From Pachyseris speciosa (taxonomy: Eukaryota; Cnidaria; Anthozoa; Scleractinia; Pachyseridae), in contig JAEMWC010000213.1 in NCBI GenBank assembly GCA_016490735.1, forward strand, positions 388,501 to 452,500: a DNA stretch of 64,000 nt, given 5' to 3'. Below the pieces are notes generated by a model that did no database searches, was not told the DNA's origin, and worked only from the letters and a program-made list of their open reading frames with translations. The position numbers were made by a program, and so were the translations under genes. Positions 2,136-35,100 of this stretch are shown piece by piece; positions within the stretch are counted from its first letter, which is position 1, and the number at the start of each line of letters is the position of its first letter.

Positions 2136-5100
2136 CGATTTATTAGTAGTACTTCCACAAGGTGGCTCTTCGCCTACTAATTACAAATCTCAGTGGGTCC
2201 CTGAGTCCGTCAGGTTAGATCAGCAAGGCAGGTGGGGATGCTGTCAGGGAGAGAGACAGTGCCAGTCATACAGTCAGTCAGTTAGTCGCTGGATTAGGCA
2301 AGCATTGAGAATGTCAGTCGGTCACCTGAGCCTACAGTCATAAAAAACAGTGACCTCGTGAAGAGGTTATGAATTTTGCGCATACGAAAACGGCTTCCTT
2401 AGTATGCGGTTGGGCTGCACCTCTTTAAAGCGTCTAATTTCATTGGATCTTTTGTAGGCTGCACCTCTGTTGCTTTAGGGCTCGGTTCTATTGTTTTTAT
2501 TGTTTGTTTATTTTTTTAACCAATCCTGTGAGGTCTTCCAAATGTTGCAAATCGCACCTTAGTATGGTTATGGCTTAGTATTCATTGGGCCCAAATGACA
2601 GTTCTTCGTAGTTACTTATCAACAACAATACAGCAGTACAGTTGTAGTCTTCTTAAACTTAACTGTAGGGCGTTTCTCTTTGTGACGATTGTTTTGGTTT
2701 GCTCTTCATTCTGTGTTGAATTATTTGTCTCACTGGCACCTTTTCTTTCACTCCAGGCACGTGGGCTCCAGGAACACAACTCATCACAGGTGAACAGACA
2801 CCTTAACACACCCTGTCATGGCCTTTGCCTTCTGAAATAGAAATGAAGTAGCACCGTCTATTCCGATGTAATCCAGCCTAACTTAACCGAATCTAATCTA
2901 AACAAGACTTGTCCAATTTAATCTGATATGATGCTATGTGTACATATACAGCTTATAGTGTGAATGTTAGAGTGATTAATAACTTGTTTCTTGTCCTCCC
3001 AGATCGCCTTGACCTGGACTAACTCTGTTGTAGTGTTTGATTACTTCAAGCCGCCTGAACCACCCACATTTGACAGCAAAGCGAACACCATCACTGCAGA
3101 GGTTAATGTCCAGTTTCCTCAGGCTCTTGATACTGTGCAAATCTCAAAACCATAAACACTTGAGTTGGCTTACATATGTTAACTGTGACGTGGCCAGTAA
3201 AACAGAAAATCAAATCGCGAAGGATCATTACCTGAACTTTCAGCTTAGGCCCAAATTTCTGGCCATATATGTCCACAGAATGTTATTCGTATTGAACAGG
3301 ACCCATAGGATTTGATAAAAGTTGTCGGGTACACTGTGGTTCAAAGTATGCACCTTAAACGACTCTACATAGTGGAAATATGGCGGGAAGATATTAAGAT
3401 ATTTACATTTCGTATCCACATCGTGTTGATTTTGGGCGTGAAAAATGTTGAATTTTGTGCTTTAAAGACTATCCTTTCCCTGAAATGTTGATCTTCAGCT
3501 CTCCAAATTACGTGTAAATTATTTTCAAGGTGGGTCGGTCCTTTAGTAAGATTTTTTGGCAGATAAAAAATGATAATATAGTTTGATTCATTACGCTTTA
3601 CTCTTCCATTCTCATTGTCAAACCGCCACTCTTGTAGCGTGGTTAACTATGTTTCAGCCCTGATATCCAACTAACTGCAAATTCCCATTACCGGATCCGT
3701 ACATCCCTTGTCTCATCATCAAGTCAATTTATCTGTGACAGTCATTTTCTTTATCATCGTCACCTCTTGTTTCTCATGTAGTAAAGAGAGATGAGATACC
3801 GATCTCTATCAGTGCTAAAAGTGTTAAAATAGTGTATTGATTCTCTAAAGTTAGATCTATTGGCTAATGACAGGTGCAGAATCTTCTCCGGAGAATAACA
3901 ATGGTGATTCCACCGCAAGAACTTGAAGGTACGCTATGAATAGAAATAGTAGCGATCTGCGCTAATCTGAAAAAAAAAAGCTCAGTGTTTTTGTTTCGAT
4001 ACAGTTCGCCGGCTTATTCAGACTGCTGCCAGAATATCCTAAAAGTAAATATTTTGCAAAAATGTGCTGGATGATATTCTCTACGTGTCTTGTATCTTCA
4101 TTTCTTTTTATTCAATACGTGAATTAGTGCTGATAAGTTTATTTTCAGGCGCCCCTGGGGCAAAACATTGCCATTCCATATTTGATTGGTTAATCCAAGG
4201 TCATGAAACCAAGCTTCTTTGCTAGATCGGTGATGGGATTCACTGTCAGTCGTGGATAATCTACGTAGTACAGAGAACTCTTTTAATTTGTCTCAACCAT
4301 TTCTTTCAACAGCAATCAGCTTTGAGAGTGTCCAGTCGTTTATTGAAGGTGGAGATGAGCCGGTCCCAAAGTTGCCTGGAAATTTTGCTGGCGTTAAAAG
4401 GTACTCTGGTAAATCTGTTTTGTCCATTTTCTTTGACTGAAGTAATGGTGGTTAACAACTGCGTTGCTAAGTGGAAGTGGTGTGTCTGTGGCACACGGGA
4501 GCTTAGTTGCAATTTTGTTTACCTCCACAGACCTGTGATAAGTGAAATATTCTACCTACTCGCTGACTTTTACTTCAAGAACAAAGAATTCAGGTATTAT
4601 TTCAACAATTTTTGGTTTCCCTTGCTGTATTTGTGCACCTGCATACTTGACTGTTTTCAAGCTTACTTATCATTAAGTTCTGTAAAGTACAGCAGTATTC
4701 AGCAAGGTGATTTAATCTCGTTGGGCGTTGCTTTACATGTTGGCTGCCACGGCCCTGCTGTGTGACACTCGGACTGAAAAGTTTTGTCTCCGTAAAATGA
4801 AAATGTGCCATTTTCGCTGCGATTGTTGAAATTGTCACAGATTGACCGATTATATTTGGATTATAAGTCAGTACTGTTGCCTTCGTCCTTGTTGATGTCC
4901 TTGGTGTCGTTGTTGTTGTGGTTCTTGTTGTTGTCATTTTTGAAGTCACTGTGGTGGTTGTTGATGTTGTCATTGCCCTTGTTATTATTATTATTATTGC
5001 CTTTGATGTTATTGCTCTCATCTTTTCCGTGACTTTCTGAGGATCCCAAAATTCGACTTTCAATGTCCTCATTTTTTGCATGGCTTTTCCGCAACAGTAT

Positions 5101-8100
5101 TTCAATAAATGTAACACGGAATTCTCTTGTTCTAATACCTTAAATAATGGGGTTAACTCACGAGTTTAGCGTCCGTGCAAATGGTATCAAAGTAAACTGT
5201 GTTAAATTCAAACAAATATGTTTGACTTCATAATTTCCGTTCAACTGCTTATTGAAGGTCGGAGACTGTTTTGTTAATTCAATAATAGCCTAGTAATTAT
5301 ATACCCAAAAAATCTTTGATATGTATATGATGGTTGAAGTGCAACATTACTTTCCGGAAAACAACTTAATTTACTTTTTCAGGCAGTGTTTTACCTTCTC
5401 GCAAAATAATTTGTAACGAACAGTAAAACATGTTTACCATCCGATTTCGTTAGGTATGAATCCTCTGAGGCCGCGTGGTGCGGAATGGCGTTGTTCTAAT
5501 TCAACAGATACATGGAATTGTTATTCACCAGTTGAACAGTTGATTTTTATTGATTTGCTATTATTTAAATACAGAATTACCTGACCCGCAGGTAGCAAAG
5601 CTAATCCAGGCGGGCCAGGAGATAAGGAAAGAAGAAAGACTGCTAAAAGGAATATGTTAATAAGAAAATAAAGTTGAAATTAAAACGAGAACAACGTTGA
5701 GAAGAAAAAAAGAAATAATAAAAAATCCAAATAAAGATCTGATTAAAGCAACAAACGAAGACGAAGGGACGCGCTGCCATCTTGTGGCATTATTGCGTTA
5801 CCATCCACAGGCATTGAAACAGCACGTTATAGATAAGAACCGTATTTGTTTACCTTGCATATGATTTCTTCTAGACGAGTCATCAGACTGTAAAATTTCA
5901 AATAACAATGCGCGAATTCTCTTTTTAAATTTATCTTTAGGCAAATTACGAATATTAGTTGGTATCGCATTCCACAATTTCGCACCAATTCTTGAGAACG
6001 CATATTTTTGAATCTCTAGATTTGATTTTTTTATATAAAAATTATGGGACGTTGAGGATCTAGTATTGTATGAATGAACACGAGAAGTGGGAAGAAACAA
6101 GTCTTGAATGTTTTGGGGTAAAAGATGCTTACTTATATCGTACATTGTTTCCGTAAGTAGTTGATAGTAAAGAAAGTTCAGTGGTAAAATCTTTGCATTG
6201 GTAAACAACGGAATTGCAATCGAATTGCATTGGTTGATTTTAACCGTTGATCAACGTTCTTCTGGATAGCCGTCGACAATCTTGTGAAATGTCTATATGA
6301 TAAGATGGTATCCGGGAATTCTTCCCGGTTAATCCAAGATGGCGCCGTAAAAAAGAGAGTAGCCAGAGAGAAATGGCCAGATATAAAATACAGCGGGACT
6401 GTTTGCAGTCTGGATCAAGGACAGTTTTCCAGCTCTATACTCAACGAATATAATTATCTTTTTAGGCTTAAAAAACTACTGAACGCGAACTGTGAAACTG
6501 GAAGAACATCTCATTTCAATTAGTAATTATCAGTACAAATGGTATCAAAGTAAAATAATGTTAAATTCAAACAAACATGTTTCACTTAATAGTTTCCGTT
6601 CAACAGCTTATTGAAGGTCAGAAAGGGTTTTGTTAATTCGATGAAAGCCTAGTAATTATGTACGCAAAAAGTCTTTGATATGTAGATCTTGGTTGAACAT
6701 TATTTTCCGGAAAACAAGTTAATTTCGTTTTCCAGGCATTGTTTTACTTTCTCGCTTTTTCGCCCCCATGTGACAAAAAGGCTGAGCAGTTTTCACGTGC
6801 CTAAAAAGGGAATACGCTCTTTCTGTCGCGAGAAGGAAGAAAATGCCTTCACCAACTGTAAAACAAATTAAAGGAAAGGATCATCCATTCTTACATCTGT
6901 CGGCACAATCTTTCAAGTGCACTTTCTTATTAAGCATTGTCGAAAATCTATTGAACAAATCGAATTTAACTATTTTTCGTTATTGGCGTAACAAAAACTA
7001 ACGAAAGCCATTTCTAGTTTATGACGTAAAACAAATCAAAGTGTCCCTTCACACCACAGAAAGCTTTGCTGAATACAGAGGTGTGTACTAGCCAAGGCGC
7101 TATGAATTCAAACGTAAATTCTCACAACGACACTACCCTCTCTGAATGTCGACTCTACATATTCTTAGGAGGAAAACATGATCAAACTGCCTCCGAGGCT
7201 ATTGCGGCTTTTGTGTTCATAATCGTGGTGAGCATTATCGCTTGTCCTTTGACGACTGTTTTGAACGTGTTGGTGATCATTTCTGTCAAGACGAAAGCAC
7301 GACTGCAAACCGTCTCCAACACAATAGTTGGCTGTTTGGCTGTGACGGATTCTCTGATGGGGATGATCGGTCTCCCGCTCTTTGCTGCTGGAGGAATATT
7401 TAACCTTAACTCAGAAACTCCCAGTGATTTTTGTGCGGTGAGGGATGGATTCCGTACCGTGATTAGGATCTTAGGTGGTGCAACAATATCCCATCTGGTT
7501 CTGATGAATACCGAGCGATACATAGCCATAAAACACCCGTTTGAACACATAACTGTTGTCACCAAACCGCGTGTAATCGGCTCGTCTGTCCTCGCTTGGA
7601 TCACAACACTGTCAATCACCTTACTTTTGGCCATCACAGACGATAGCATTTACATAACAGTAAGCAATATCGTCCTGTTACTTTCAGTGGCCATCGTTGT
7701 CTATTGTCAAGTTGTAGTTTATTACGAAACTCGTCGGCAGAACAAACGAATCGCTGCCCATCAAGTCTCTGTAGAAGCCAGGAAAACGTTCTTAAGGGAG
7801 AAGAAGACCTTTAAAATAACAACAACTGTTCTTGTCACACTTCTGATATCATATTTGCCCATACTTGTCGTCCGAATACTTCTGAAAAAGTCTGTGATGT
7901 CCAAAAATGTGGCGGCTGTTGTCACCTTCGCTTCAACCTTGGTACTGACGCTAAACTCGTTAGTTAACCCCATTATTTACTGTGTCAGAACAAGACAATT
8001 CCGTGTTGCATTTATTGAAATATTGCTGCGGAAAAGCCATGCAGAAAGTGAGAACTTTGAGATCCGAATTTGTGGATGTTCAATAATAACATCAACGGCA

Positions 8101-11100
8101 AGAATAAGAACAACACTAACAACAACAATAAAAGTACAACGCCAACAAATGAATGGCAACATCAACAACCACCACAGCGACTTCAATAATGATTACGACA
8201 ACAATAACAACAACAACAACAACAGCGATGATGGCAACAAGACAACGGTGCCACCAATGACAACGGCGATAACACGGACAGCAACAAGGACGAAGATAGC
8301 AGTAATGACTTACAATCAAAATATCATCATTCAATCTGTGACAACTTCAACAACGACTGCGATGATAGCAGTAGTAACGCAGAGGAAGAGAGCAGCTGTA
8401 AATAGTACGTGACTATAATGGATAGCTATTCAGAAAATAAAGAAAGTGGCGTCCTTTTTCCGGATTACCTAAGGAAACGCATTTTCGTACACTTCATTTT
8501 CCTTCTTGTCAGGCCAAGGCTGAGCAACGACATAACCGTTATAAACTATATTTGCTACATTGTCTTTAATGCTTTTCTATCTCTCCATTCACAAAGAATG
8601 TGAAACGAACAGTAAGACATGTTTACCGTCCGAGTTCGTTAGCAATAGATCCTCTGAGACCGCCTGTTGCGGAATGAAGTGGTTCTAATTCAACAGATAC
8701 ATGGAATTGTTACACACCAGACATTACCAATCGAATTTGTTGATTTTAACAATTGTTCAACGTTTTTCTGAATAGCCGTATAGAAAAAAAAAATTGATGA
8801 ACGTGAACTATGAAACTGGAAACCCATCTTATTTCTTATTAATCGTAAGTACAAATGCTATCAAAGTAAATGTTAAATTCAAACAAACATGTTTGACTTT
8901 ATAATTTCCGTTCAAGTGGTCACTGAACTGACGGTCGAAAGTGTTTTGTAGCCTCTTAATGCAATAAAAGCTTCATTATTGATTATGTACCCAAACAATC
9001 TTTGATATGTAGATGTTGGTTGAAGTGCAACATTATTTTCCGGAAAACAACTTAATTTACTTTTCCTGTCCATTGCTTTGCATTCTCGTATTTTCGACCT
9101 TCGAGCGACAAAAACACTGAGGAGTTTCCTTGAACCAAAAAGGTGAATTTCTTCTTCCTTCTGCAAGAAGAAGGAAAATGTTTTCACTAATTGAAAACAT
9201 GGTTCAACGAAACGATCGTCCAGGAGATATGTCCAGGTTTGCAAGCAGCTGAAAAAAGTGCGAAATTTGCGAAAAAATTGGAAAATTCGTCGAGTCAGTG
9301 AAAAGTAGTAGAAGAGGAGGTTGATAGGACCCCAACGAAACACTGCGAAATTTGCAAAAATTGCGAAAACGTGGGGAAAAGGGCCATATTTGGAAAATTG
9401 GAAAATTCTCCGAATCTGTGAAGTAGGAGAGGAGGTGGAGAGCGCCTGAACCAAAACTGCGATTTTTGCGACATTTGCGAAAAATCGGAAAATTCGCCGA
9501 GTCAGTGAAGAACAGTTCGTATTAGCAGCGATCGCTTGTACCCATCGCTTAAAGAACGAGGCGATTATATAGGTAGCTTTGTTAGCTTTGCATTTCTTAA
9601 AGGCGGTATGTTGCTTAACCCATTGGCACCCGTGCCGGCCAAAACCGGCCGTAGAAAACTCCCATGCTTCAAAACATTGCAACTTTCTCAATAGCACGAA
9701 TATTGCCTTAACTGTTAGTTGTGAGCACGAAATGGGATGTCCTTTAATTTTGGATATCCAATAAACGCAAGAAACGTAGCGATTTTTACCAAATATGGCC
9801 GTTTGAGTTTGGACAAGAACGAAACTGACCGTTTTTAATGTCAAAGAGAAACGACAAAAGTGCCCCTTTTTGCCTTCATGTTTCTTAAGGAAATCATCGT
9901 CGAAAAACCAAACTTCAATCATAACGAAATTCAGTCCTTGCTCTAGCTTAGAAATCACTTTTTTTGTTCATATTCTTCTCCCGAGCGTAGATACAGCCTT
10001 TTGTTCCAGTGCATTCGGGCCTTCCCGACATTTTCAACATCTCGAGCGCGTTGCATTCTGGGAAATAACGAGAATTTTTGACAGCGCCCGTTCCTTCCCC
10101 CAAGTCTAATGCCACTCCGACCTACCGCCAAAATTTCCTGCTTGTGGTCATCTTCAGTGCTCACAAATTCCAAAATATGCGGCGGTAGGTCGAGAAATTC
10201 ATCAGTAGTCGAGTCCCAAAGGTACTAAGTGTCCGACCGGCCAAATTCCCAGTTCGTCGAGTAACAAGCCAAATTCGACAACAAAGTACATCACCTTGCT
10301 CGATTCTTTGAGAAAGTGGACTCTTAGCTACCGTCACGCTTAATGATGCTCATCAGGCAGCCGCTAAAGATGAAAAATGGCTGTAAACTTAGTAAAAATC
10401 TCAAGCAAACCGAACTTGGGCCATTGTTGTTGCTTCACGGATAAAAAATAGCGAGGTCAAAATGACGTTTTCAGAAACCTTGAGCCTCCAGTGCCTTAGG
10501 ACAGCACCACTTTTCCCTGATAGTTTCAAATAAAGAGTCACAAATTGCTACACTATTCATCGTTATAGGTGGAAAATCACTCCGAAAACGTAAAAACAGC
10601 TGGTAGTCAATGGGTTAATGAGATTAACGCGACAAATCATTTACTTTGCACTTTTCGCAAATTTTGCAGCTCCATGCAAACCTGAACATAAGTGTTTTCT
10701 GTCATCGATCGGAACAATATTTCAACTGAATTTGCCTTCTAAGCATCGTCGAAAATCTATTGAAAAAAATTGAATTGAATTTTAAGAGTTTATGTTTGGT
10801 TGACTCAAAAGCAGTTTTCGTTATTGTTATTCGTTGTTCGCCTAAAAAAATTGAAGTAAGTCATTTGTAGCTTATAAAGGAAAACAAATTGAAGGGCCCC
10901 TTCATACTGCAGAAAGCTTTGCTGAGTACAGACGTGTGTGCTAGCCAAGGCGCTATGAATTCAAATGTAACTTCCCACAACGGGACTACGCTCTCTGAAT
11001 GTCAACTCTACACTTTCCTGGGGGGAAAACGTGATCAAACTGCCTCCGAGGCTATTGCGGCTTTTGTGTTCATAATCGTGGTGAGCATTATCGCTTGTCC

Positions 11101-14100
11101 TTTGACGACTGTTTTGAATGTGTTGGTGATCATTTCTGTCAAGACGAAAGCACGACTGCAAACCGTCTCCAACACAATAGTCGGCTGTTTGGCTGTGACT
11201 GATTGGTTGATGGGAATGATCGGTCTGCCGCTGTTTGCTGCTGGAGGAATATTAAACCTTTACTTAGAAACACCCAGTGATTTTTGTGCGGTGAGGGATG
11301 GATTCCGTATCGTGATTAGGATCTTAGGTGGTGCAACAATATCCCATTTGGTTCTGATGAATAGCGAGCGATACATAGCCATAAAGCACCCGTTTGAACA
11401 CATAACTGTTGTCACCAAACCGCGTGTAATCGGCTCGTCTGTCCTCGCTTGGATCACAACACTGTCAATCACCTTACTTTTGGCCATCACAGACGATAGC
11501 ATTTACATAACAGTAAGCAATATCGTCCTGTTACTTTCAATAGCCAACGTTATCTATTGCCAAGTTGTACTTTATTACGAAGCTCGTCGGCAGAACAAAC
11601 GAATCGCTGCCCATCAAGTCTCTGTAGAAGCCAGGGAGAAGGGAGAAGAAGGCCTTTAAAATAACAATTCTTGTCACACTTCTGATATCATATTTGCCCA
11701 TATTTGTCGTCCGAATACTTCTGAAAAAGTCTGTGATGTCAAAAAATGTGGCGGCTGTTGTCACCTTCGCTTCAACCTTGGTAGTGACGCTAAACTCTTT
11801 ACTTAACCCCATTATTTACTGTGTCAGAACAAGACAATTCCGTGTTGCATTTATTGAAATATTGCTGCGGAAAAGCCAAGCAGAAAGTGAGAACTTTGAG
11901 ATCCGAATTTGTGGATGTTCAAAAAGTGACAACAAAGATGAGAGCAACATCAACGGCACGAATAAGAACAACACTAAAAACAACAATAAAAGTACAACGA
12001 CAACAAGATGAATGGCAACGTCAACAACCACCACAGCGACTTCAGTAATGATTACAACGACAACAACAACAGCGTTGATGGCAACAAGAACAACGGTGCC
12101 ACCAATGACTGGGATGGATTCCGTATCGTGATTAGGATCTTAGGTGGTGCAACAATATCCCATTTGGTTCTGATGAATGGCGAGCGATACTTAGCCATAA
12201 AGCACCCGTTTGAACACATAACTGTTGTCACCAAACCGCGTGTAATCGGCTCGTCTGTCCTCGCTTGGATCACAACACTGTCAATCACCTTACTTTTGGC
12301 CATCACAGACGATAGCATTTACATAACAGTAAGCAATATCTTCATGTTACTTGCAGTTGCCATCGTTACCTATTGTCAAGTTGTAGTTTATTACGAAACT
12401 CGTCGGCAGAACAAGCAAATCGCTGCCCATCAAGTCTCTGTAGAAGCCAGAAAAAAGTTCTTAAGGGAGAAGAAGGCTTTTAAAATTACAACAACTGTTT
12501 CTTGTCACACTTCTGATATCTTATTTGCCCATATTTGGCGTCCGAATACTTCTGGAAAAGTCTGTGATGTCCAAAATGGCGGCTGTTGTCACCTTCGCTT
12601 CAACCTTGGTAGTGACGCTAAACTCGTTACTTAACCCCATTATTACTGTGTCAGAACAAGACAATTCCGTATTTGCATTTATTGAAATATTGCTGCGGAA
12701 AAGCCAAGCAGAAAGTGAGAACTTTGAGATCCGAATTTGTGGATGTTCAAAAAGTGACAACAAAGATGAGAGCAACAACAACGGCACGAATAAGAACAAC
12801 ACTAAAAACAACAATAAAAGTACAACGACAACAAGATGAATGGCAACGTCAACAACCACCACAGCGACTTCAGTAATAATGATTACAACGACAACAACAA
12901 CAGCGTTGATGGCAACAAGAACAACGGTGCCACCAATGACAACGGACATAACACGGACAGAAACATGGTCGAAGACAACAGTAATGACTTACAATCAAAA
13001 TATCACCAGTCAATCTGTGATAAACTTCAACAACGACTGCGATCACAGAAGTAGTTGCGTAGAGGTAGAGAGCAGCTGTAAAATAGTAGGTAGCTATAAT
13101 GGATAGCTATTCAGAGAATAAAGAAAGTGGCGTCCTTTTTTCCGGATTACCTAAGGAAACGCATTTTCGTACACTCCATTTTCCTTGTCAGGGCGAGGCA
13201 GAGCAACGAGATAACCGTTAAAAACTATATTTGGTACATTGTCTTTAATTCTTTTCCATCTCTCCATTCACAATGAAGAATGTGAAACGAACAGCAAAAC
13301 ATCTTTAACCATCGGAGTTCGTTAGCAATAGATCCTCTGAGACCGCCTGTTGCGGAATGAAGTGGTTCTAATTCAACAGATATACATGGAATTGGTACTC
13401 ACCAGACATTACTAATCGGATTTGTTGATTTTAATAATCTATCAACGTTCTTCTGTAGAGCCTTATAGTAAAAAATAACTGCTGAACGTAAACTATGAAA
13501 CTGGAAAACCATCTTATTTCTTATTAATTATAAGTACAAATGCTATCAAAGTAAATGTTAAATTCAAACAAACATGTTTGACTTTATAATTTCCGTTCAA
13601 GTGGTCATTGAACTGATGGTCGGAAAGTGTTTTGTAACCTCTTAATGCAATGAAAACTTCATTATTGATTATGTACCCAAAAAATCTTTGATATGTAGAT
13701 GTTGGTTGAAGTGCAACATTATTTTCCGGAAAACAACTTAATTTACTTTTCCTGTCCATTGCTTTGCATTCTCGCATTTTCGACCTTCGAGCGGCAAAAA
13801 CACTAAGAAGTTTCTTTGAGCCAAACAGGTGAATTTCTTCTTCCTTCTGCAAGAAGAAGGAAAATGTTTTCACTAATTGAAAACGTGGTTCAATGAAACG
13901 ATCGTCCTTTCTGGGATATATGTCCAGGTTTGCACGCAGCTGCAAAAATTGCGAAAATTTGGAAAATTTGTCGGGTCAGTGAAAAGCAGTAGAAGAGGAG
14001 GTTGAGAGGGCCCCAACGAAAAACTGCGAAATTTGCAAAAATTGCGAAAACTTGGGAAAAAGGGCCAAATTTAAAAAATTGGAAAATTCGTCGACTCTGT

Positions 14101-17100
14101 GAAGTAGAGGAGGAGGTGGAGAGGGCCTGAACCAAAACTGCAATTTTTGCGAAATTTCCGAAAAATCGGAAAATTCGCCGAGTCAGTGAAGAGCAGTTCG
14201 TATTAGCAGCGATCGTTTGTACCCTGTCGCTTAAAGAACGAGGCGAGTATATAGGTAGCTTTGTTAGCTTTGCATTTCTTAAAGGCGGTATGTTGCTTAA
14301 TGAGAGTAACGCGACACATCATTTACTTTGCACTTTTCGCAAATTTTGCAGCTGCGTGCAAACCTGGACATAAGTGTTTTCTGTCATCGAACGGAACAAT
14401 ATTTCAACTGAATTTGCCTTCTAAGCATCGTCGAAAATCTATTGAAAGAATTGAATTGAATTTTAAGAGTTTATGTTTGGTTGACTCAAAAGCATTTTTC
14501 GTTATTGTTATTCGTTGTTCGCCTAAAAAAATTGAAGTAAGTCATTTGTAGCTTATTAAGGAAAACAAATTGAAGGGCCCCTTCATACTACAGAAAGCTT
14601 TGCTGAGTACAGAGGTGTGTGCTAGACAAGGCGCTATGAATTCAAACGTAACTTCCCACAACGGGACTACGCTCTCTGAATGTCAACTCTACACTTTCCT
14701 GGGGGGAAAACTTGATCAAACTGCCTCCGAGGCTATTGCGGCTTTTGTGTTCATAATCGTGGTGAGCATTATCGCTTGTCCTTTGACGACTGTTTTGAAT
14801 GTGTTGGTGATCATTTCTGTCAAGACGAAAGCACGACTGCAAACCGTCTCCAACACTATAGTCGGCTGTTTGGCTGTGACTGATTGGTTGATGGGGATGA
14901 TCGGTCTGCCGCTGTTTGCTGCTGGAGGAATATTAAACCTTAACTCAGAAACTCCCAGTGATTTTTGTGCGGTGAAGGATGGATCCCGTACCGTGATTAG
15001 GATCTTAGGTGGTGCAACAATATCCCATTTGGTTCTGATGAATGGCGAGCGATACTTAGCCATAAAGCACCCGTTTGAACACATAACTGTTGTCACCAAA
15101 CCGCGTGTAATCGGCTCGTCTGTCCTCGCTTGGATCACAACACTGTCAATCACCTTACTTTTGGCCATCACAGACGATAGCATTTACATAACAGTAAGCA
15201 ATATCTTCATGTTACTTGCAGTTGCCATCGTTACCTATTGTCAAGTTGTAGTTTATTACGAAACTCGTCGGCAGAACAAGCAAATCGCTGCCCATCAAGT
15301 CTCTGTAGAAGCCAGAAAAAAGTTCTTAAGGGAGAAGAAGGCTTTTAAAATTACAACAACTGTTCTTGTCACACTTCTGATATCTTATTTGCCCATATTT
15401 GGCGTCCGAATACTTCTGGAAAAGTCTGTGATGTCCAAAAATGTGGCGGCTGTTGTCACCTTCGCTTCAACCTTGGTAGTGACGCTAAACTCGTTACTTA
15501 ACCCCATTATCTACTGTGTCAGAACAAGACAATTCCGTATTGCATTTATTGAAATATTAATGCGGAAAAGCCATGCAGAAAGTGAGAACTTTGAGATCCG
15601 AATTTGTGGATGTTCAAAAAGTGACAACAAAGATGAGAGCAACATCAACGGCACGAATAAGAACAACACTAAAAACAACAATAAAAGTACAACGACAACA
15701 AGATGAATGGCAACATCAACAACCACCACAGCGACTTCTATAATGATTACGACAACAACAACAACAACAACAACAGCGTTGATGGCAACAAGAACAACGG
15801 TGCCACCAATGACAACGGACATAACACGGACAGAAACATGGTCGAAGACAACAGTAATGACTTACAATCAAAATATCATCAGTCAATCTGTGACAACTTC
15901 AACAACGACTGCGATCACAGAAGTAGTTGCGTAGAGGTAGAGAGCAGCTGTAAATAGTAGGTAGCTATAATGGATAGCTATTCAGAGAATAAAGAAAGTG
16001 GCGTCCTTTTTTCCGGATTACCTAAGGAAACCCATTTTCGTACACTCCATTTTCCTTGTCAGGGCGAGGCAGAGCAACGAGATAACCGTTAAAAACTATA
16101 TTTGGTACATTGTCTTTAATTCTTTTCCATCTCTCCATTCACAATGAAGAATGTGAAACGAACAGCAAAACACGTTTACCATCGGAGTTCGTTAGCAATA
16201 GATCCTCTGAGACCGCCTGTTGCGGAATGAAGTGGTTCTAATTCAACAGATATACATGGAATTGGTACTCACCATTCAATACTAATCGGATTTGTTGATT
16301 TTAATAATCTATCAACGTTCTTCTGGAGAGCCTTATAGAAAAAAATAACTGCTGAACGTAAACTATGAAACTGGAAAACCATCTTATTTCTTATTAATTA
16401 TAAGTACAAATGCTATCAAAGTAAATGTTAAATTCAAACAAACATGTTTGACTTTATAATTTCCGTTCAAGTGGTCATTGAACTGATGGTCGGAAAGTGT
16501 TTTGTAACCTCTTAATGCAATGAAAGCTTCATTATTGATTATGTACCCAAAAAATCTTTGATATGTAGATGTTGGTTGAAGTGCAACATTATTTTCCGGA
16601 AAACAACTTAATTTACTTTTCCTGTCCATTGCTTTGCATTCTCGTATTTTCGACCTTCGAGCGGCAAAAACACTAAGAAGTTTCTTTGAGCCAAACAGAT
16701 GAATTTCTTCTTCCTTCTGCAAGAAGAAGGAAAATGTTTTCACTAATTGAAAACATGGTTCAATGAAACGATCGTCCTTTCTGGGATATATGTCCAGGTT
16801 TGCACGCAGCTGCAAAAATTGCGAAAATTTGGAAAATTTGTCGGGTCAGTGAAAAGCAGTAGAAGAGGAGGTTGAGAGGGCCCCAACGAAAAACTGCGAA
16901 ATTTGCAAAAATTGCAAAAACTTGGGAAAAAGGGCCAAATTTAAAAAAATTAGAAAATTTGTCGACTCTGTGAAGTAGAGGAGGAGGTGGAGAGGGCCTG
17001 AACCAAAACTGCGATTTTTGCGAAATTTCCGAAAAATCGGAAAATTCGCCGAGTCAGTGAAGAGCAGTTCGTATTAGCAGCGATCGTTTGTACCCTGTCG

Positions 17101-20100
17101 CTTAAAGAACGAGGCGAGTATATAGGTAGCTTTGTTAGTTTTGCATTTCTTAAAGGCGGTATGTTGCTTAATGAGAGTAACGCGACACATCATTTACTTT
17201 GCACTTTTCGCAAATTTTGCAGCTGCGTGCAAACCTGGACATAAGTGTTTTCTGTCATCGATCGGAACAATATTTCAACTGAATTTGCCTTCTAAGCATC
17301 GTCGAAAATCTATTGAAAGAATTGAATTGAATTTTAAGAGTTTATGTTTGGTTGACTCAAAAGCAGTTTTCGTTATTGTTATTCGTTGTTCGCCTAAAAG
17401 AATTGAAGTCATTTGAAGTCATTTGTAGCTTATAAAGGAAAACAAATTGAAGGGCCCCTTCATACTACAGAAAGCTTTGCTGAGTACAGAGGTGTGTGCT
17501 AGCCAAGGCGCTATGAATTCAAACGTAACTTCCCACAACGGGACTACGCTCTCTGAATGTCAACTCTACACTTTTCTAGGGGGAAAACTTGATCAAACTG
17601 CCTCCGAGGCTATTGCGACTTTTGTGTTCATAATCGTGGTGAGCATTATCGCTTGTCCTTTGACGACTGTTTTGAATGTGTTGGTGATCATTTCTGTCAA
17701 GACGAAAGCACGACTGCAAACCGTCTCCAACACTGTAGTCGGCTGTTTGGCTGTGACTGATTGGTTGATGGGAATGATCGGTCTGCCGCTGTTTGCTGCT
17801 GGAGGTATATTAAGCCTTTACTTAGAAACACCCAGTGATTTATGTGCGGTTAGGGATGGATTCCGTACCGTGATTAGGATCTTAGGTGGTGCAACAATAT
17901 CCCATTTGGTTCTGATGAATGGCGAGCGATACATAGCCATAAAACACCCGTTTGAACACATAACGTTTGTCACCAAACCGCGTGCAATCGGCTCGTCTGT
18001 CCTCGCTTGGATCACAATACTGTCAATCACCTTACCTTCGGCCATCACAGATGATAGCATTTACATAACAGTAAGCAATATCTTCATGTTACTTGCAGTT
18101 GCCATCGTTACCTATTGTCAAATTGTAGTTTATTACGAAACTCGTCGGCAGAACAAGCAAATCGCTGCCCATCAAGTCTCTGTAGAAGCCAGAAAAAAGT
18201 TCTTAAGGGAGAAGAAGGCCTTTAAAATAACAACAACTGTTCTTGTCACACTTCTGATATCTTATTTGCCCATATTTGTCGTCCGAATACTTCTGGAAAA
18301 GTCTGTGATGTCCAAAACTGTGGCGGCTGTTGTCACCTTCGCTTCAACCTTGGTAGTGACGCTAAACTCGTTAGTTAACCCCATTATTTACTGTGTCAGA
18401 ACAAGACAATTCCGTGTTGCATTTATTGAAATATTGTTGCGGAAAAGCCATGCAGAAAGTGAGAACTTTGAGATCCGAATTTGTGGATGTTCAAAAAGTG
18501 ACAACAAAGATGAGAGCAACATCAACGGCACGAATAAGAACAACACTAAAAACAACAATAAAAGTACAACGACAACAAGATGAATGGCAACATCAACAAC
18601 CACCACAGCGACTTCTATAATGATTACGACAACAATAACAGCGTTGATGGCAACAAGAACAACGGTGCCACCAATGACAACGGACATAACACGGACAGAA
18701 ACATGGTCGAAGACAACAGTAATGACTTACAATCAAAATATCATCAGTCAATCTGTGACAACTTCAACAACGACTGCGATCATAGAAGTAGTTGCGTAGA
18801 GGTAGAGAGCAGCTGTAAATAGTAGGTAGCTATAATGGATAGCTATTCAGAGAATAAAGAAAGTGGCGTCCTTTTTCCGGATTACCTAAGGAAACCCATT
18901 TTCGTACACTCCATTTTCCTTGTCAGGGCGAGGCTGAGCCACGAGATAACCGTCAAAAACTATATTTGGTTCATTGTCTTTAATTCTTTTCTATCTCTCC
19001 ATTCGCAATGAAGTATGTGAAACGAACAGTAAAACATGTTTACCGTCCGAGTTCGTTAGCAATAGATCCTCAGAGGCCGCCTGTTGCGGAATGAAGTGGT
19101 TCTAATTCAACAGATATACATGGAATTGTTACACACCAGAGATTACCAATCGAATTTGTTGATTTTAACATTTGATCAACGTTTTTCTGGATAGCCGTTG
19201 AGAAAAAAAATAACTGCTGAACGTGAACTATGAAACTAGAAAACCATCTTATTTCTTATTAATTATAAGTACAAATGCTATCAAAGTAAATGTTAAATTC
19301 AAACAAACATGTTTGACTTTATAATTTCCGTTCAAGTGGTCATTGAACTGATGGTCGGAAGTGTTTTGTAGCCTATTAATGCAATAAAAGCTTCATTATT
19401 GATTATGTACCCAAACAATCTTTGATATGTAGATGTTGGTTGAAGTGCAACATTATTTTCCGGAAAACAACTTAATTTACTTTTCCTGTCCATTGTTTTG
19501 CATTCTCGCATTTTCAACCTTCGAGCGACAAAAAGACTGAGAAGTTTCCTTTAGCCAAAAAGGTGAAATTCGTCGAGTCTGTGAAGTAGAAGAGGAGGTG
19601 GAGAGGGCCTCAACCAAACTTGCGATTTTTGCGAAAATTGCAAAAATTGCGAAATTTGCGAAAAATCGGAAAATTCGCCGAGTCAGTAAAAAGCAGTTTT
19701 TATTAGCAGCGATTATTTGTACCCTGTCGCTTAAAGAACGAGGCTAGTATATAGGTAGCTTTGTTAGGTTTGCATTTGTTAAACGTGGTATGTTGCTTAA
19801 TGAGATTAATGCAAAAAATCATTTACTTTGCACTTTTGGCGACTTTTCTCTTCAACGTGAAAAATCGCAAATTTTGCAGCTGCGTGCAAACCTGGACATA
19901 AGTTATTTCTGTCATCGATCGGAGCAATGATTCAACTGAATGTGCCTTCTCAGCATCGTTGAAAATCTGTTGAAAGGATTGAATAGAATTTTAAGAATTT
20001 ATGTTTGCTTGACTCAAAAGCAGTTTTCGTTATTGTTACCTGTTGTTCGCATAAAAAAAATTGACGAAAGTCATTTGTAGCTTATAAAGGAAAACAAATT

Positions 20101-23100
20101 CGAGTGTCCCTCCACACTACAGAAAGCTTTGTTGAGTACAGAGGTGTGTGCTAGCCACGGCGCTATGAATTCAAACGTAACTTCCCACAACAGGTCTACG
20201 CTCTCTGAATGTCAACTCTACACTTTCCTGGGAGGAAAACTTGATCAAACTGCCTCCGAGTTTATTGCCGTTTTTGTGTTCATAATCGTGGTGTGTATTA
20301 TCGCTTGTCCTTTGACAACTGTTTTGAACGAGTTAGTGATCATTTCTGTCAAGACGAAAGCACGACTGCAAACCGTCTCCAACACTATAGTCGGCTGTTT
20401 GGCTGTGACTGATTCTCTGATGGGGATGATCGGGCTGCCGCTTCTTATTACGGGAGGAATATTAACCCTTTACTCTGAAACATCCAGTGATTATTGCGCG
20501 GTGCATGATCTCACCTTAGTTGTGACTAGAGTATTAGGAGTCGCAACAATGTTTCACCTGGTTCTGCTGAACTTGGAGCGATACGTAGCCATAAAACACC
20601 CGTTTGAACACATAACTGTTATCACCAAATCCCGTGTAATACGCTCGTCTGCCCTCACTTGGATGTTATCCATCACCTTTCCACTGGCCATTACGAACGG
20701 TTACATTTATGCAACCGTTGTCAATATCATCTTGTTATTTTCCATGGCCGTCTTTATCTACTGTCAAGTTGTAGTTTTTAACGCTACTCGTCTGCAAGAA
20801 AAGCAAATTGCTGCCCATGAAGTCTCTGTGGAAGCCAGGCAAAAGTTTTTAAGGAGAAAAAAGCTTTTAAAGTGGCAACAACTGTGCTTGTCAGTCTTCT
20901 AATTTGTTATATGCCTTTATTTGTGGTCCGAATACTTCTGAAAATGTTAGTTATGTCTAAACACTTGTCAGCTGTTGCTTCCTTTACTGCAATGTTCGTA
21001 ACAAATCTCGAGTCCTTGATGAATCCTGTTATTTACTGCGTAAGAACCAGACAATTTCGTGTGGCGTTTATTGAAATACTGTTGCGGAAAAGACATGCAG
21101 AAAGTGAGGACTTTGAAATTCGAATTTTTGGATCAAGGAACAGTGCTAACAGTAATGGTAGCAGTGGTCTTGTCGGCAACAATAACAACAACGTCAGAAG
21201 CATTTATAGGGACAGTCACAACAGTGGAAACACCAACAACTGTGACAAGGAAAGGAACATCAGCAACCACCATAGCAACAGTGACTTCAGCAGTGACAAC
21301 AAAAAGAATGAGAGCAACAGCGACAGCAACAATGACGACAATGTAGGGACAGTCACAACAGTGGAAACACCAACAACTGTGACAAGGAAAGGAACATCAG
21401 CAACCACCATAGCAACAGTGACTTCAGCAGTGACAACAAAAAGAATGAGAGCAACAGCGACAGCAACAATGACGACAATGTCAACAACAACAGCGACAGC
21501 AACAATGACGACAATGTCAACAACAACAGCAACAATGTCAACATCGTCAACAACAATAACAAGAACAGCAACAATGACAACAACGACAGCAACATTGAAA
21601 GCAATGTCAACAGCGACAGCAACATTGACAGCAATGTTAACAGCGACAGCAACAATGACGACAATGTCAATAACAACAGCAACAATGACAACGACAGTAA
21701 CATTGACAGCAATGACAGCAACAACAACATTGACAGCAATGACAACAGCGACAGCAACAATGACGACACTGTCAACAACAACAGTAACAATGACCAGAAC
21801 GACAGCAACAATGTCATCAACGACAGCAACATTGACAGCAATGACAACAACAGCAACATTGACAGCAATGACAACAGCGATAGCAACAATGACGACAATG
21901 CCAACAACAATAATAACAATGTCATCAACAAAGACAACATTGTCAGTAACAAAATGCAACAGTGAGAACATTGTCAAAAACAACAACAACAATGGCAATA
22001 TCAACAAGAACATGTAACAATTTGAACATTGTCAACAACGACGGCAACAATGGCAACACTGTCAACAACGATAACCACAACGACAACAATGACAACATTG
22101 TCAACAACAACAACAACAGCAATGATGACTATAATAACAAGGGAAAGTGTGCCAACAATAACCACAATGTGAACAATTACATCAATAATGACAAAACAAG
22201 GACATCGACAACAACCTGATAGCGGCAGCAAAGAGAATAATAAAAACAATGAAAACAACGTTGAAAGCAACGAGAACAACAACAACAGAAAAAGAGTACA
22301 GCAACGAGAGCCTCAGCGTCAATACGAACAATAGCAAGACTGGGACAGGACAACAACAACAACTGCGATTGAAACTGACATTCATGGCGACAGCAACTAC
22401 ATGTACATCAGCAGTGAGAACAGCATAAAGAACAGCTACGCCCTAAATAAGCAGTACTGGAAATTAAACACGAAAATGATCCAGGTTGTCTCTTGTCAGA
22501 TGCTGGGCGACCAGTCTCAAAACTCTTTTCAACGAGTTTTGATATAGAAACCTTTGAGAGAACATGGGTTCCTGAATGACAATGTTTTGGCGAGTAATGG
22601 CCCGAAAAAGTGTTTAAATGGAGGAAGTACTAACTCAATGAAATTTATAAAACTTTCTCAATTGTCTGGATAAAAACAGACAAATCAGAATACGTAAAAA
22701 AATTGGCAACTCTTTTAAGTTTGCAAATGAAGACATGTTTTGCTCGACCATCGATCATCATTAGTTGCAAGTGTTCGTTACAATGCGAGCTTGAATTACA
22801 TTTAAATGTTACAATGACATTTAAATGTTACAATGACGTTCCAAAAGGACTTGATAAAAGCAGACAAGATATTTTTAAAAAGTGGACAACCACGTTGAGT
22901 TTATAACTAGACATGTTTCGATCGTTCAACGATCGTCATCAGTTGTGAATTAGTTACAGTAAATTTCATCGTTATAGTTCGGATGATAGGTAAGCACACG
23001 CGCGCGCAACATGAACGAAAACGAATAAATGAAACTAAGATTAAAGCTAAGGAAAAAATAATTAACACAAAAATAGTAAATAAATAAAAATAAAACATAA

Positions 23101-26100
23101 GTCTCATTTCAGTGTGTTTCAACTACTTATTTAAACAAGGATTTTCCCAGCGGATATGAGCAGCTTCTTTTAATAACAACTGATAGCGATTGGCTGCCGT
23201 ATCCAACACTGAGAAGCAGAGTTACGGAAGAATGTCTACGGCATTCCTCCGAATGGCTCAAATGCTGGAAGACATGAGAGGTCCTATCCCTTTCCAAATG
23301 CTCGCGAACGCGTACTGAGAGATGTGGGGATGTTTGGCTGTTGTAACAGGCATTACAACCTGCACATGTCAATTTATACACAACACGAGAACGGAGATCA
23401 ACAGGAATAGGATCCTTAACACTAAACAAGTTACGGATCTTAAATGAAGTGAAAACAAACCTAATTTCTAGATCTTTGTAGAAATGTTTACTGACTATAG
23501 TTTACGCATAAACCTACGTAAAGTAACTTGAAGTACTGTAGCAAAACAGAAGATTTCCGTGTGCTTGTGAGGCATTGTGGGTTCTGGTGGTATATTGATT
23601 AATTACCTTCTCAATTAAATTTAAGGGGAAAATATTTTTCTGCAAAATGAGGGTAAGGTTCATCATTATGAAAACCCAACCAGGTATTGTTGATTTTAAA
23701 TGCTTTATCAACAAGCTTTCTCTAATTCTCTCTTTTCCCATCTTTTCGTTTCCCTCTCTTTTCGCACTTCCTTCCTCCCTCTCTAGTCTCAGCCGTTCTT
23801 TGTCTCGTCACGCAACGCTCCTCCCCAGGAGCGTTGCGTGACGAGACAAAGACTACTCCCTCTCCGAATACAGCCATTATTATCAAACCACAACGCTCAC
23901 CCCACACTCCACCCCTCTGTGAAACAGGTGTAACTTTCATCGAGAGAGATTACTTGCGTGACGGTCCTTCTTAGTATATTTTTGTATTAATGTTTTCAGC
24001 AAAGCCCTGAAGTTCTACATGCATGATGTGACCGTTCAACCAGAAAGAGCTGACACCTGGGCGGCTATGGCTCTGGCGCGTAAAAGTAGACTGGAAAACA
24101 AGTTAAACGCGGTAACTTTGTTGGTCGTGGTTTTTTTTAGCAGCGTAGTACTCAGTTACTCCCAATATAACACCAAACTTGTTGACAACATTTAGAGCAG
24201 TTTTCAATTGAGTGTCGTGAAACCAAACCCAAAGCAACGACTTCAGCCAATCACAACAGAGGCACACGGCGCAATGAGCCAATCAGAATTCAAAGCAATT
24301 ACACGTAACTGCTGCAAAGCGCGGGAAAATGCGCGCGTATGAGTCGCTGTTGGTTTTGGTTCTGCCTCTCATTGGTTAAAAAAGTGGCGCGAGTTTTGCT
24401 GACCAATCACAGAGCGAAGTAATGCAAAACCAAAGCAAACGCAATTCACTTGCGATGCTTAATTGGAAACCGCTCTTTCAAGAAGCGAATAGAACTGCTA
24501 ATACTTACAAACTACTAGCTTTCATTTGTCTGGTTTTTTCATTGAGTGTCGCAAAACTAAAACCAAACCAATTATTCCAGCCAATCACAACTGACCGAAA
24601 CAGTGCAATGAGCCAATCAAAATTCGAAGTAATTACATGTAACGAGCGTAAAGCGCGGGAAAATGCCCGCGTGCATGTTGCGATTGGTTTTGGTTTTCCT
24701 TCTCATTGGTTGGCACGGTTTGCCAACCAATCACAGAACGAAGCAATGCAAAACTAAAAGCAAACGAGAATTACTTTCGATGCTGAATTGAAATCGAACA
24801 CCGCTCTAAACAAATGGGAGAGTGAAACTGCATAATTGCGGCACCTCACGAAAGACCACTTCAGTAGCTTTCACTTGACTGATCACACTTAAGAATTTCA
24901 TCGACAGGCTCAAATGTAATAAACAGCACCACAGAAAAGCACTGCTCAGTAGCTTTCAGTTGCATGGTCATGACATACTTTGAGATTTTCATCCACACAA
25001 TCAAAAGTTAGAATCAAGTTGTACAGGATAGTAATCAGCACCACAAGAAAGTACTGCTCAGGGGCTTTCAATTGAATGGTCGCACCGTACAACTTGATCC
25101 ACAGAATCAAGAGTTAGAATCATCTTGTACAACAGCACCACTAGAAAGGACCTCTGGGCAGCTTTCATTCGAATTATCGCAAGCGATAATACAGAAAAAG
25201 AGGTATTTTGTCTTCTTTTGGTAACCCCTCGTTATCTTCATTGAAATTAGTTTTGTTGTGTCCTTTTTTCCAGTGTGAACCCAAAAGCGAAGGACCTATT
25301 CAAAAGCTTGCTGTGTCAGCTCTAAGGTAAGTCCGAAACACAGATTCCTCCTTACCTATTTCGAAGTATTGGTTCCATGCAGCAGTTTAGAAAGTTAAGG
25401 TAGTTATGCAGATGTCTTTCCCTTTCAATATCTCCAGAAATCTCGGAAATAAGCGCCCAAATCCCAGTGGAAGTAATCTATCAGTTATGTACCCTCCACT
25501 ATATGCGTTCATAGGCTGTTTGGGCTAGTATTTTTCTTTCTAGCTTTGTGATTCACACGGTTTCTGTTGTCAAGTGTAAACCATTTTTTATTGCAAAATT
25601 TTTCCCAATAAAATCCCTCTCAGTAATGAAAACAATTGACCCATAAAATTTCCATTAAAGGAATTCAAGCTCAGGTTATTTGACTTTATGTCACCACACC
25701 TTTTTGGGATGTGGAATTAACTAGCAGTACTTCTCTCTTTCCAGATGTTTTAAAAGAGCGCTGGAAATTGACGGCTCAAACAGCAGCTTATGGGAAGAGG
25801 TATGTAAGCTAACTCCTGCTGGTGCTCGTAAGACGGACGTCTGACTAAAACGGGCGTGGGCATACGTCAGTTATGGGGCTGTTTAGCAAAGACAACGCGA
25901 CGACGGCGCGGCAAGATCTAAATTTCGACTTGACCAATGGCAGAACGGCAAATTGACCACCGGAAGTCGCGTTCAGTCCTTTCCCCGCCCTTTCGCGTTC
26001 TCATTTGACGTTGCGTTGTCTTTGCTAAATCTGCCTACTGAGCTCGCTATACCGGTATTTCCCGATGTTTGATTCATGCCGGTGTTATTAAGTAATCAGC

Positions 26101-32100: not shown

Positions 32101-35100
32101 AATAGTAGTGTTATGAACTACTCTGTAGTTAGTGTCACATGTTTAAGCTATTTCGAAAGAGCGATCAACCGATAGTTGATAGCGACTCCAATCGATAGCC
32201 AGACGGGTTGTTAATATGGGAACTTTGCAGTTCCCCTTCATGCTTGCAACTTGTGAAATATATGTGTTCTGGCCGATATTAATAGTCTTGGATTTCACTT
32301 GACTGTTTGAGGAAAGAATAAACGGTTTGTGATGGCAGAGCTTGTTTTAAAAACGCTTAAAAGGAATATACCTTTTTAGCTTGTAGATGTTGTTTTCCCA
32401 ATGTAGACCATGTGATCCTCCGAAGGGGATTTGCCTTTTGTCTTTTCGTAAATTATGCGTACGTTCAAAGGCGAAAGTTCAAAAGAAACATTTCTCTAGG
32501 GTAACATCACATGACCTACTTTGGGATAACAAAACATACAAGCTTAAAAGGTATATTAACGTCAGAATTACTCGACGGTGTCGTGGTTAAAACCATTAAC
32601 TGAGAGTGAGATTTCCTCTTGTCCTTATCCATTTCAGGAGACAAGTGCCTGCCGTGACTTGCTGTTTGGTAGTAACACCAGGCAGGTCAAGACATTTCCT
32701 TTTCCACATCAAGGAGTTTTCAATGAAAAGAGCAAGACGAACTTGTTCTCGGTAAGGATAACTTACTACTGTATATAACATTGATTTCCTAATTATGAGG
32801 CCCAATAGAACTGTTTTCAATTGAGCATTGAAAGTAAACTGTGTTTGCTTTGGTTTTGCATTGCTTCGCTCTGTGATTGGTCAGCAAAACGCGCGCCACT
32901 TTCTCAACCAATGAGAAGCAAAACCAAAACCAATCGTGACTTGCACGCCGCGCGCATTTTCCCGCGCTTCAGGCCGATTACGTGTAATTGCTTCGAATTC
33001 TGATTGGCTCACTGTACTGTTTCGGGCTTTTGTGATTGGCTTGAGTAATTACTTTTCCTTCATTTGTATCAGTGTAACTGAAGCCTCAGAATAGGCACAA
33101 AGAAAACAACTTGAGGCCCGTGCTAACGCTCCAAATTGTCGAGTCCAACATGCTGGGTGCATGCGTTTGAGCAGTGTGTTAGGTGTTGTCAGCAGTTAGG
33201 CCTCACCTGTAGTTCTTATGAACTGATTTTTGTTACACCTCCCATTGGTTGGTTCTTGTTTGGATAGTTTTCATATGAATGTACTGATACAGCACAATCC
33301 GAATTTTGATTCTCTTCGTTGTGTCCCAATTTCATTTTACTGGAGTTTAAAGACGATGGATACTAAAAATTGTTTAAACGGACTGTCCTAATAAACCTAA
33401 GTTATGTGATACATATTTGTTTATCCCTTCTCAATTATTTCCATAACAGGCGTTCTGGAGAATCCCTGAAGAGGATATTGATAGGTAACTGATCTGGTCT
33501 TTATTCAACAACAAAAGAGCAACAGACGTGCTCGATTTACAGTATAAACAAAGAAATCAAACTGCAATATTAAAAAGACACCTATTGATAAAAACTGATT
33601 TAAAACGCTCGGTATTTATTCTAGGCAAGATGTAATTTTGAGCCCTTTTACATAGTTGTCTAGTCCTTCAGGTGGTAAAAGGTCTGTTAGCAGTTTCTAT
33701 GGTAGTGATTCTACACCACAATTCTAAATCTGTCAAAGGAGCTAGTCACGATTTGTTTCCCAAATTATTCTCACTTCTCACCATCCAGACATTCTCAGTA
33801 TCAGAACATTCTGCTGTTTGAGAAAAACGAGCGACTTAGTAGTGAACTTTACTCGACTTATAAAGGCTGTTTTTGACCCTGGCAGACGTTCTTCTTGTTT
33901 GTTTGTTTGTCTATTTTGTTTTGTTTTGTGTTGTGTTCTTGTTTGTTTGGGTCGTTTTCATCCCCTAATGACATGAATCACGTTTCTCTGTTTCAGGCCT
34001 GGTAGTTTCTGTACTCACACCTACAAATCAGTGGCGCTGCTGCTAGACGTTCTTAGCGAGTTAAAGGAGTGGGACACCTTGTTGCTTATCCAGAACCTTC
34101 TTTACAGAACACCAGAGCAGGGGAAGTAAGTTAATTACCATATCGTTGTCGCAAAAGGTCCTCTTATTTTGCTGTTTTTAAAAGTCAAATGCTTTATTAT
34201 AGCTGGTCAAGTTGAAATCTGCTAACTTGTTCAAGATAGAATTCCTTGTTAATTATGTCGAATCCAAATCGTCCGTTTTTCTAGTTTATCTTAAACGATT
34301 TCCCTTGATTCTCCTTCGATTTATCTGAAATTCGGTTTGACGAAAATTAGTTAACATGTTATGACTTAGCGAGGGGAACGAAGCACTTGTTGGTTATATA
34401 GACCCTTTTCATAAAGGCGCCCGACAAATTATTCTTTTATTTTTATGATAATGAGCCCTACTAGCCTCGTCAGCATGTGCAAAATTCAATAGAATTTTTT
34501 CATTAAAGTGAGGTTAGTAGGGCTAATTAACACATATACAAAAGAATAATTAAAATCGTCCGCCATTATGAAAAAGGTCTATTATTTAAAGTAATGTTTA
34601 ATAAATGAAGAGGAGTGTTTTATCAAGTTTAAAACACGAGGCGCAGCCGAGTGTTTTAGGACTTGATAAAACACGAATTGCGAATTTATTGAACGGCTTA
34701 AAAATCTTTACTGTAATTCTATCCATTCTTACACTAAAATTTAGAATATGGGTTATTTTGGCCTAGAAAATCGGATGTAAAATTTAGCCGTGTCTTAATC
34801 AGATATAAAGACACTCATTAAAAATTAATTTCTTTTGTATTTCCTTCATGAATTATTAATGTGTTTTTTCAGGAAGGAGAAAGCATCCCTCTGGGTTGGG
34901 TTTTTCCTCCTGTGGTCTCTCTTTCGTACTGACCAACCACGAAAGCGGTAAACGATGCGCTTCTTAAGAGATCCTGAGGAACCCTGAGTGTCTTACACTG
35001 ACCATTTTGCTTGCGGCCAAAAGGTCTTTGTGATGTCATTCGTGTATAATGTTCAAGCGTGAAACATGGCTGAGAAGGCGAAAAAGCTTAAACCTGGAAC

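Follow-up and report, generated by a model that had tools for sequence, protein, structure and literature searches.

The window analysed here is a 64,000-nucleotide stretch of the genome of the stony coral Pachyseris speciosa (contig JAEMWC010000213.1, positions 388,501 to 452,500, forward strand), and the element under study is a long intron of a CABIN1-like gene that carries an array of one-exon receptor copies assigned to the class A (rhodopsin-like) G protein-coupled receptors (GPCRs). The 3' part of the host gene was modelled from splice sites, reading frame, homologs and tblastn blocks as 23 exons at 1865-39827 on the + strand, with a TAA stop codon at 39825-39827. All 22 introns of this model are GT-AG (22/22), and the spliced exons form a single open frame of 1,124 codons that ends at the TAA. 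The window starts within CABIN1, the upstream part of the gene lying before it. A protein database search with the 1,124-codon host protein, which scored just the 7,988 candidates with the most words in common, returned 91 matches, many of them named cabin-1; these included proteins from Nematostella (51% identity) and Desmophyllum (77%, with 39% query coverage), and other cabin-1-named matches came from a jellyfish, hydroids, arthropods and vertebrates. When the Nematostella (P0122) and Desmophyllum (P0123) cabin-1 proteins were used as tblastn queries against the window, colinear blocks were obtained at 17 of the 23 host exons (E1 and E3-E18, the last with an E-value of only 0.11), flanking the array on either side, and an additional upstream exon with unrefined edges was found at 687-785 on the + strand (P0122, 70%; P0123, 79%). 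Colinearity with annotated cabin-1 proteins over many exons thus identifies the host gene, at the level of sequence, as CABIN1. When PDB was searched by sequence for the product of host exons one to seven, designed tetratricopeptide repeat (TPR) proteins ranked best, which was uninformative for identity.

The array intron is flanked by host exons E6 (4531-4593, +) and E7 (24000-24111, +), each bordered by AG and GT and joined in phase 2. The original prediction had these two exons joining in frame as consecutive CABIN1 blocks, and this was borne out by the exact coordinates, the phase, the order of the tblastn blocks and the alignment of relatives, in which the E6/E7 junction (4593/24000) was ungapped in 5/5 proteins; in P0123, a 16-column insert ends about 21 residues upstream of that junction. 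The phase-2 intron between them (4594-23999, +) is 19,406 base pairs (bp) long, compared with a median of 709 bp for the 22 host introns and 2,134 bp for the second longest, and 74% of it is DNA that resembles the duplicated unit described below.

Receptor copies were located by tblastn with copy 4 and by blastn with its unit, which together revealed five full-length + copies, one 5'-truncated + copy and one - remnant. The tblastn placements were at 7102, 10955, 12113 (partial), 14636, 17513 and 20165 on the + strand and at 5172-5032 on the - strand, in agreement with the earlier statement that all but one remnant follow the host's orientation. Three + copies are open: copy 1 (7102-8412, 436 amino acids), copy 3 (14636-15706, 356 amino acids) and copy 4 (17513-18583, 356 amino acids), each supported by its open reading frame (ORF) and Pfam and copy 1 also by alignment; the longer tail of copy 1, in a different frame from the tails of copies 3 and 4, is the result of a 19-bp deletion. 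The remaining + copies, placed by tblastn and alignment, are broken. Copy 2 (10955-12010) is frameshifted by 8-bp and 6-bp deletions, and fused to its tail is the truncated copy (12111-12840), which has lost the first ~113 codons (it starts at about codon 114) and contains several small indels; the divergent copy 5 (20165-21150) has a 1-bp frameshift deletion and an in-frame 6-bp deletion. The antisense remnant of a receptor 3' part lies at 4823-5173 on the - strand (blastn, 71% on the minus strand; tblastn, 70% to receptor residues 283-329). As assembled, a full receptor could be made only by copies 1, 3 and 4; the claim of at least five copies therefore stands for full-length homology and fails for intact genes, copies 2 and 5 being broken. 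The coding regions of the receptor copies lie wholly inside one host intron, which is the criterion for a nested gene, and the multi-copy nesting of receptors in the CABIN1 intron looks real. Copy 5 continues into ~1 kilobase (kb) of ACAACA-rich imperfect repeats (21150-22200), perhaps an enlarged form of the Asn-rich tail that the other copies have. The intron also holds a 115-amino-acid ORF at 5798-6145 (-), which had no Pfam match and which we take to resemble the C-terminal end of the polymerases of non-long terminal repeat (non-LTR) retrotransposons.

The array is built of ~2.87-kb units repeated head to tail, every unit comprising a one-exon class A GPCR and its flanks. One such unit of 2,865 bp (unit 4) was delimited by blastn at 16178-19042 (+); it is 97.1% identical over 2,878 columns to the preceding unit 3 (13308-16178). 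Unit 4 also matched stretches of 1.0-2.9 kb in units 1-3 at 90.6-97.1% and 1.6 kb of unit 5 at 81.2%, so that on sequence comparison the repeats are beyond chance. Because head-to-tail duplication of one unit preserves orientation, the shared + orientation of the copies needs no special cause. The wider spacing between copies 1 and 2 is due to a 996-bp insert (9619-10614) that splits the unit between them; it has TTAA on both sides and short inverted ends (CCCATTG / CAATGGG), and is presumably a piggyBac-like non-autonomous element. Divergence along the units is uneven. Compared with copy 4 in 150-bp steps (three of the upstream steps being half gaps), copy 5 was 3-14% different upstream and over the first ~300 coding bases and 18-29% different beyond. 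Units 3 and 4 (13308-19042) differed at 33/1071 coding positions compared with 19/1328 positions in the intergenic DNA and 5' flank (Fisher p 0.007) and 30/1787 positions in all non-coding DNA (p 0.017). Exchange between copies is the simplest reading of these mosaic patterns; diversifying selection could also account for the excess coding divergence between units 3 and 4.

Six of the seven ORFs tested exceeded the curated cut-off for Pfam 7tm_1 (35.2-86.8 bits against 30.5; E-values 1.2e-08 to 2.2e-24), the one ORF without a match being the 3' frame of copy 5; the earlier view that the 19.4-kb intron holds intronless class A GPCRs was thereby supported. A search for receptor relatives found 363, and the comparisons below draw on the best 120 of them. 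The receptor alignment comprised 54 rows (3 from the window and 51 of the 120 relatives), to which we assigned class A position numbers. Copy 4 has the anchors N1.50, D2.50, R3.50, W4.50, P6.50 and NPxxY, as do 52-54 of the 54 rows. A structure model built from this alignment has seven helices (predicted local distance difference test score, pLDDT, 79.4; predicted template modelling score, pTM, 0.76), and the 50 PDB matches listed for it were all class A receptors by title, at 17-26% identity, including beta1-adrenergic, A2A (adenosine) and 5-HT2A receptors; the best PDB matches by sequence were beta2-adrenergic and 5-HT2A receptors. The model and the anchors point to class A GPCRs, and the structure matches say no more than class A. 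Automatic labels of named relatives include adenosine, melanocyte-stimulating hormone, sphingosine 1-phosphate and histamine H2 receptor-like. An aminergic receptor was considered and rejected: residue 3.32 is Arg in copy 4 and in 32/54 rows, and Asp is outside the six commonest residues at this position, which cover 52/54 rows. On reading the sequence, with no dedicated search made, we saw no Lys in transmembrane helix 7 (TM7) of copy 4 that would suit an opsin. Cys3.25 (residue 111 of copy 4) and the N-terminal Cys16 are invariant in 54/54 rows. Class A receptors commonly, though not by definition, have a Cys in TM3 paired with one in the second outer loop, and here none of the 54 rows has a Cys in residues 9-22 after W4.50; judging from the invariant residues, an unusual disulfide between the N-terminus and TM3 (Cys16-Cys3.25) is possible. 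By analogy with the behaviour of such families in corals, one might guess at a chemosensory or a symbiont- or immune-related role.

All five full-length copies have a common block 5' of the ATG. We scanned both strands of the intron for a TATAWA motif with an Initiator (YYANWYY) 28-33 bp downstream and found three pairs on the + strand and none on the - strand, all with 31-bp spacing and each placed 82 bp 5' of a receptor ATG (copies 2, 4 and 5); in 200 first-order resamples, the mean was 0.445 pairs. In copy 4, the TATA box and Initiator span 17431-17462 (+), the Initiator A lying 31 bp after the TATA T, and the same arrangement occurs at 10873 (copy 2) and 20083 (copy 5), while the TATA of copies 1 and 3 is degenerate. 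Because the copies are paralogous, the three pairs represent one inherited arrangement and not independent finds. At the other end, an AATAAA within a conserved 3' block was found at 18853-18858 (+) and likewise at 8436, 13117 and 15988; AATAAAGAAAGTGGCG occurs at these four sites, after copy 1 (8436), the truncated copy (13117), copy 3 (15988) and copy 4 (18853), at 24, 282 and 270 bp downstream of the stops of copies 1, 3 and 4, respectively. AATAAA occurs 22 times on the + strand and 15 times on the - strand of the intron and is uninformative by itself; the conserved setting is the telling part. With one strict rule and no control, U1-like sites in the intron numbered 0 on the + strand and 1 on the - strand, too few to judge suppression of polyadenylation (poly(A)) sites.

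The ratio of nonsynonymous to synonymous divergence (dN/dS) was estimated with the Nei-Gojobori method from at most 331 codons, and significance was assessed by applying Fisher tests to the rounded counts. It was 0.38 for copies 1 and 3 (p 8e-4), 0.42 for copies 1 and 4 (p 0.002) and 0.48 for copies 3 and 4 (p 0.06), and copy 5 gave 0.31-0.35 against the others.

Named relatives among the 120 receptors came from Oculina, Montipora and Porites, which are stony corals. Five of the 120 lie on a contig of 758,490 bases and four on a contig of 609,049 bases. Since a comparison of the contigs of full CABIN1 proteins (12 of the 91 matches) with the GPCR contigs gave none of equal size, the long exon E14 was used as the query; open-frame prediction can catch E14 in unannotated genomes. 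This search returned 57 matches, including P0215 on a contig of 758,490 bases and P0216 on one of 609,049 bases. Among the matches listed, contigs of at least 100 kb had 45 distinct sizes for GPCRs and 15 for E14, and exactly two sizes (758,490 and 609,049) were common to both. Chance is a very unlikely source of two exact six-digit agreements, so CABIN1 and the receptors very probably share these two contigs. This evidence covers the shared contig; placement in the same intron is possible and lies beyond its reach. The original prediction had proposed a synteny comparison with other corals and anemones. Evidence against a more general rule is that the other 13 large E14 contigs, and receptor-rich contigs such as those of 5,418,195 bases and, in Oculina, 23,458,249 bases, had no counterpart in the lists compared, which cover 120 of the 363 GPCR relatives. 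The linkage of CABIN1 to the receptors is probably older than P. speciosa. In a receptor tree of 46 rows (5 from the window, two of them as 5' parts, and 41 of the 120 relatives), four window copies formed one group (100/98), to which copy 5 and P0003 were nearest (99/96); receptors from the 758,490- and 609,049-base contigs fell in a neighbouring 18-row clade (97/89) along with rows from contigs of 5,418,195, 670,107, 46,308 and 665,734 bases. Tree and linkage together indicate that close receptor relatives lie on a CABIN1 contig in another lineage, each lineage having expanded its own set.

We favour the explanation that these are independent nested receptor genes that duplicated within the CABIN1 intron, carry their own signals and are read through by the host; judged from the sequence, the whole has a probability of about 0.73. 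The founder would have been one intronless class A receptor gene, of a type expanded in corals, that came to lie, in sense orientation, within the CABIN1 intron. The gene may then have been copied together with its promoter and poly(A) block through unequal crossing-over of the ~2.87-kb units, so that the intron swelled to 19.4 kb. Later, some of the copies would have decayed, and tracts would probably have passed from one copy to another; the sequence shows the units, mosaics and broken copies, from which this course of events is deduced. Transcription of each open copy would be driven by its own promoter, begin about 50 nucleotides before the ATG and end at its own AATAAAG, while the CABIN1 RNA would read through and lose the whole array in a single splicing event, receptor poly(A) sites going unused as long as they are intronic. 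The original prediction pointed to a pre-mRNA that would read straight through the receptors. This problem had already been addressed for Drosophila, where poly(A) signals in introns, those of nested genes included, are ignored and removal of the 5' splice site restores them (PMC3890989); the conflict is thus no paradox. Nested genes in human cells can cause intron retention, exonization and upstream cryptic polyadenylation (PMC3192792), and costs of this kind are the ones to look for at the present locus.

Several results weigh against the nested-gene explanation. tblastn with P0122 and P0123 gave no block at host exons E2 and E19-E23, and because E19-E23 lack a block and E18 is weak, the final host exons are supported by frame and splice sites. 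Among the open copies, a perfect TATA-Initiator pair precedes copy 4 alone, the remaining two pairs belonging to the frameshifted copies 2 and 5. The promoters and poly(A) sites called for by the original prediction are matched by sequence signs in the units, but more weakly than it stated, several copies being broken. The frameshifted copy 2 gave dN/dS values of 0.34-0.47 against the other close copies, similar to the open copies, which implies that part of the constraint is older than the duplications, and the truncated copy gave 0.47-1.26 against the four close copies, none significant. Exchange tracts, as suggested by the coding excess in copies 3 and 4 and the mosaic of copy 5, would blur these estimates of selection, and exchange itself runs counter to a coral survey in which gene conversion appeared uncommon (PMC10236652).

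The same broken copies could mean that the array is real but made up only of decaying duplicates, unexpressed and spliced out of CABIN1 as a repeat. Two frameshifted full-length copies, one truncated copy, one antisense remnant, a TTAA-flanked insertion within the array and the location of 2/3 of the perfect promoter pairs would all fit such decay; we nevertheless regard it as unlikely, since three copies remain open over 356-436 codons, copy 4 retains the class A anchor residues tested, dN/dS is below 1 for copies 1/3 and 1/4, and the promoter and poly(A) blocks have been retained. An assembly artefact, in which a receptor cluster from another place was joined into the CABIN1 intron or the copies were wrongly expanded or collapsed, is very improbable. 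Although copies 1-4 are 90-97% alike, a type of repeat prone to misassembly, and the copy number could still be wrong, the window contains zero N, the host frame is unbroken on both sides, and close receptor relatives and a CABIN1 exon occur on public contigs of identical size (758490 and 609049). Equally hard to credit is expression coupled to the host, with receptors made only from the CABIN1 pre-mRNA or promoter and the nesting functional, host transcription selecting or silencing copies by interference. The sense orientation of every copy but the remnant and the possible linkage in another coral would suit such coupling, as would the documented ability of nested genes to interfere with transcription in human cells (PMC3192792), but orientation follows from head-to-tail duplication alone, and the units bear promoter-like signals of their own. 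A broader idea, doubtful though not far-fetched, is that the receptor array at CABIN1 was present before at least two coral lineages separated and that it grew independently in both, CABIN1 serving as a conserved nursery of a coral-specific receptor family, with receptor expression tied to or insulated from host transcription by a dedicated mechanism.

Other elements were noted in the window. A palindromic element resembling a miniature inverted-repeat transposable element (MITE), with TAGACTGCGAGTAGTCTCTAATTTCGGCGATGG-like ends, lies at 399-560, its arms being 93% complementary; on reading, such ends recur at ~29676, where the element looks partial, and at 39848-39967. A diverged inverted-repeat family is represented by 1577-1805 and 24193-24641, which are 74-76% complementary, and 32817-33060 appears similar on reading. 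Downstream of CABIN1 and on the opposite strand, 53130-55253 (-) contains BTB-BACK and Kelch ORFs of a KLHL-like gene.

Tandem duplication is described as important for the growth of gene families in corals, where rhodopsin-like GPCR is the commonest domain, found in 34 of 192 coral-amplified orthogroups (PMC10236652). The array resembles these families in its amplified class A receptors and tandem duplication, and differs in that the main text of that paper never uses the word 'nested'. Its annotation procedure split and realigned alignments at introns >5 kb and kept the split when it scored better, a step that could hide nesting of the kind seen at CABIN1. Some cnidarian opsins are also intronless, which the study reporting it took as a sign of retrotransposition (PMC10512536). 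Intron-nested genes of other animals, whose poly(A) signals the host reads through (PMC3890989; PMC3192792), are alike in lying wholly within a host intron, and ~41% of those in human have a single exon (PMC3192792, citing Yu et al.). According to PMC3192792, ~63% of human nested genes lie on the opposite strand, unlike the same-strand CABIN1 copies, and in its search of three chromosomes 51 of 74 hosts had one nested gene and 23 had two or three, compared with five full-length same-strand copies, three of them open, in the CABIN1 intron. Open-licence PMC literature yielded no paper on CABIN1, coral and GPCR together and none on intron-nested genes, cnidaria and GPCR together. The vertebrate taste-receptor (TAS2R) cluster overlaps introns of PRH1/PRR4, an overlap for which our literature search returned no confirmation; it is alike as a one-exon receptor cluster within another transcription unit and differs in its unrelated receptor family and its other kind of host. 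Each part of the system is of a known kind, as both the tandem amplification of GPCRs in corals and the reading of hosts through nested poly(A) sites have already been published; what sets the locus apart is the multi-copy same-strand nesting and, possibly, a shared address, the new element being the linkage seen on public contigs.

The locus offers a clean natural case of how same-strand genes with poly(A) signals can occupy one intron without cutting off their host. The array also shows where in the genome some of the tandem expansion of coral GPCRs described earlier takes place, and annotation that splits genes at long introns could miss such nesting. If the linkage in other corals is likewise nesting, the CABIN1 intron would provide a fixed address for dating the birth and death of receptors.

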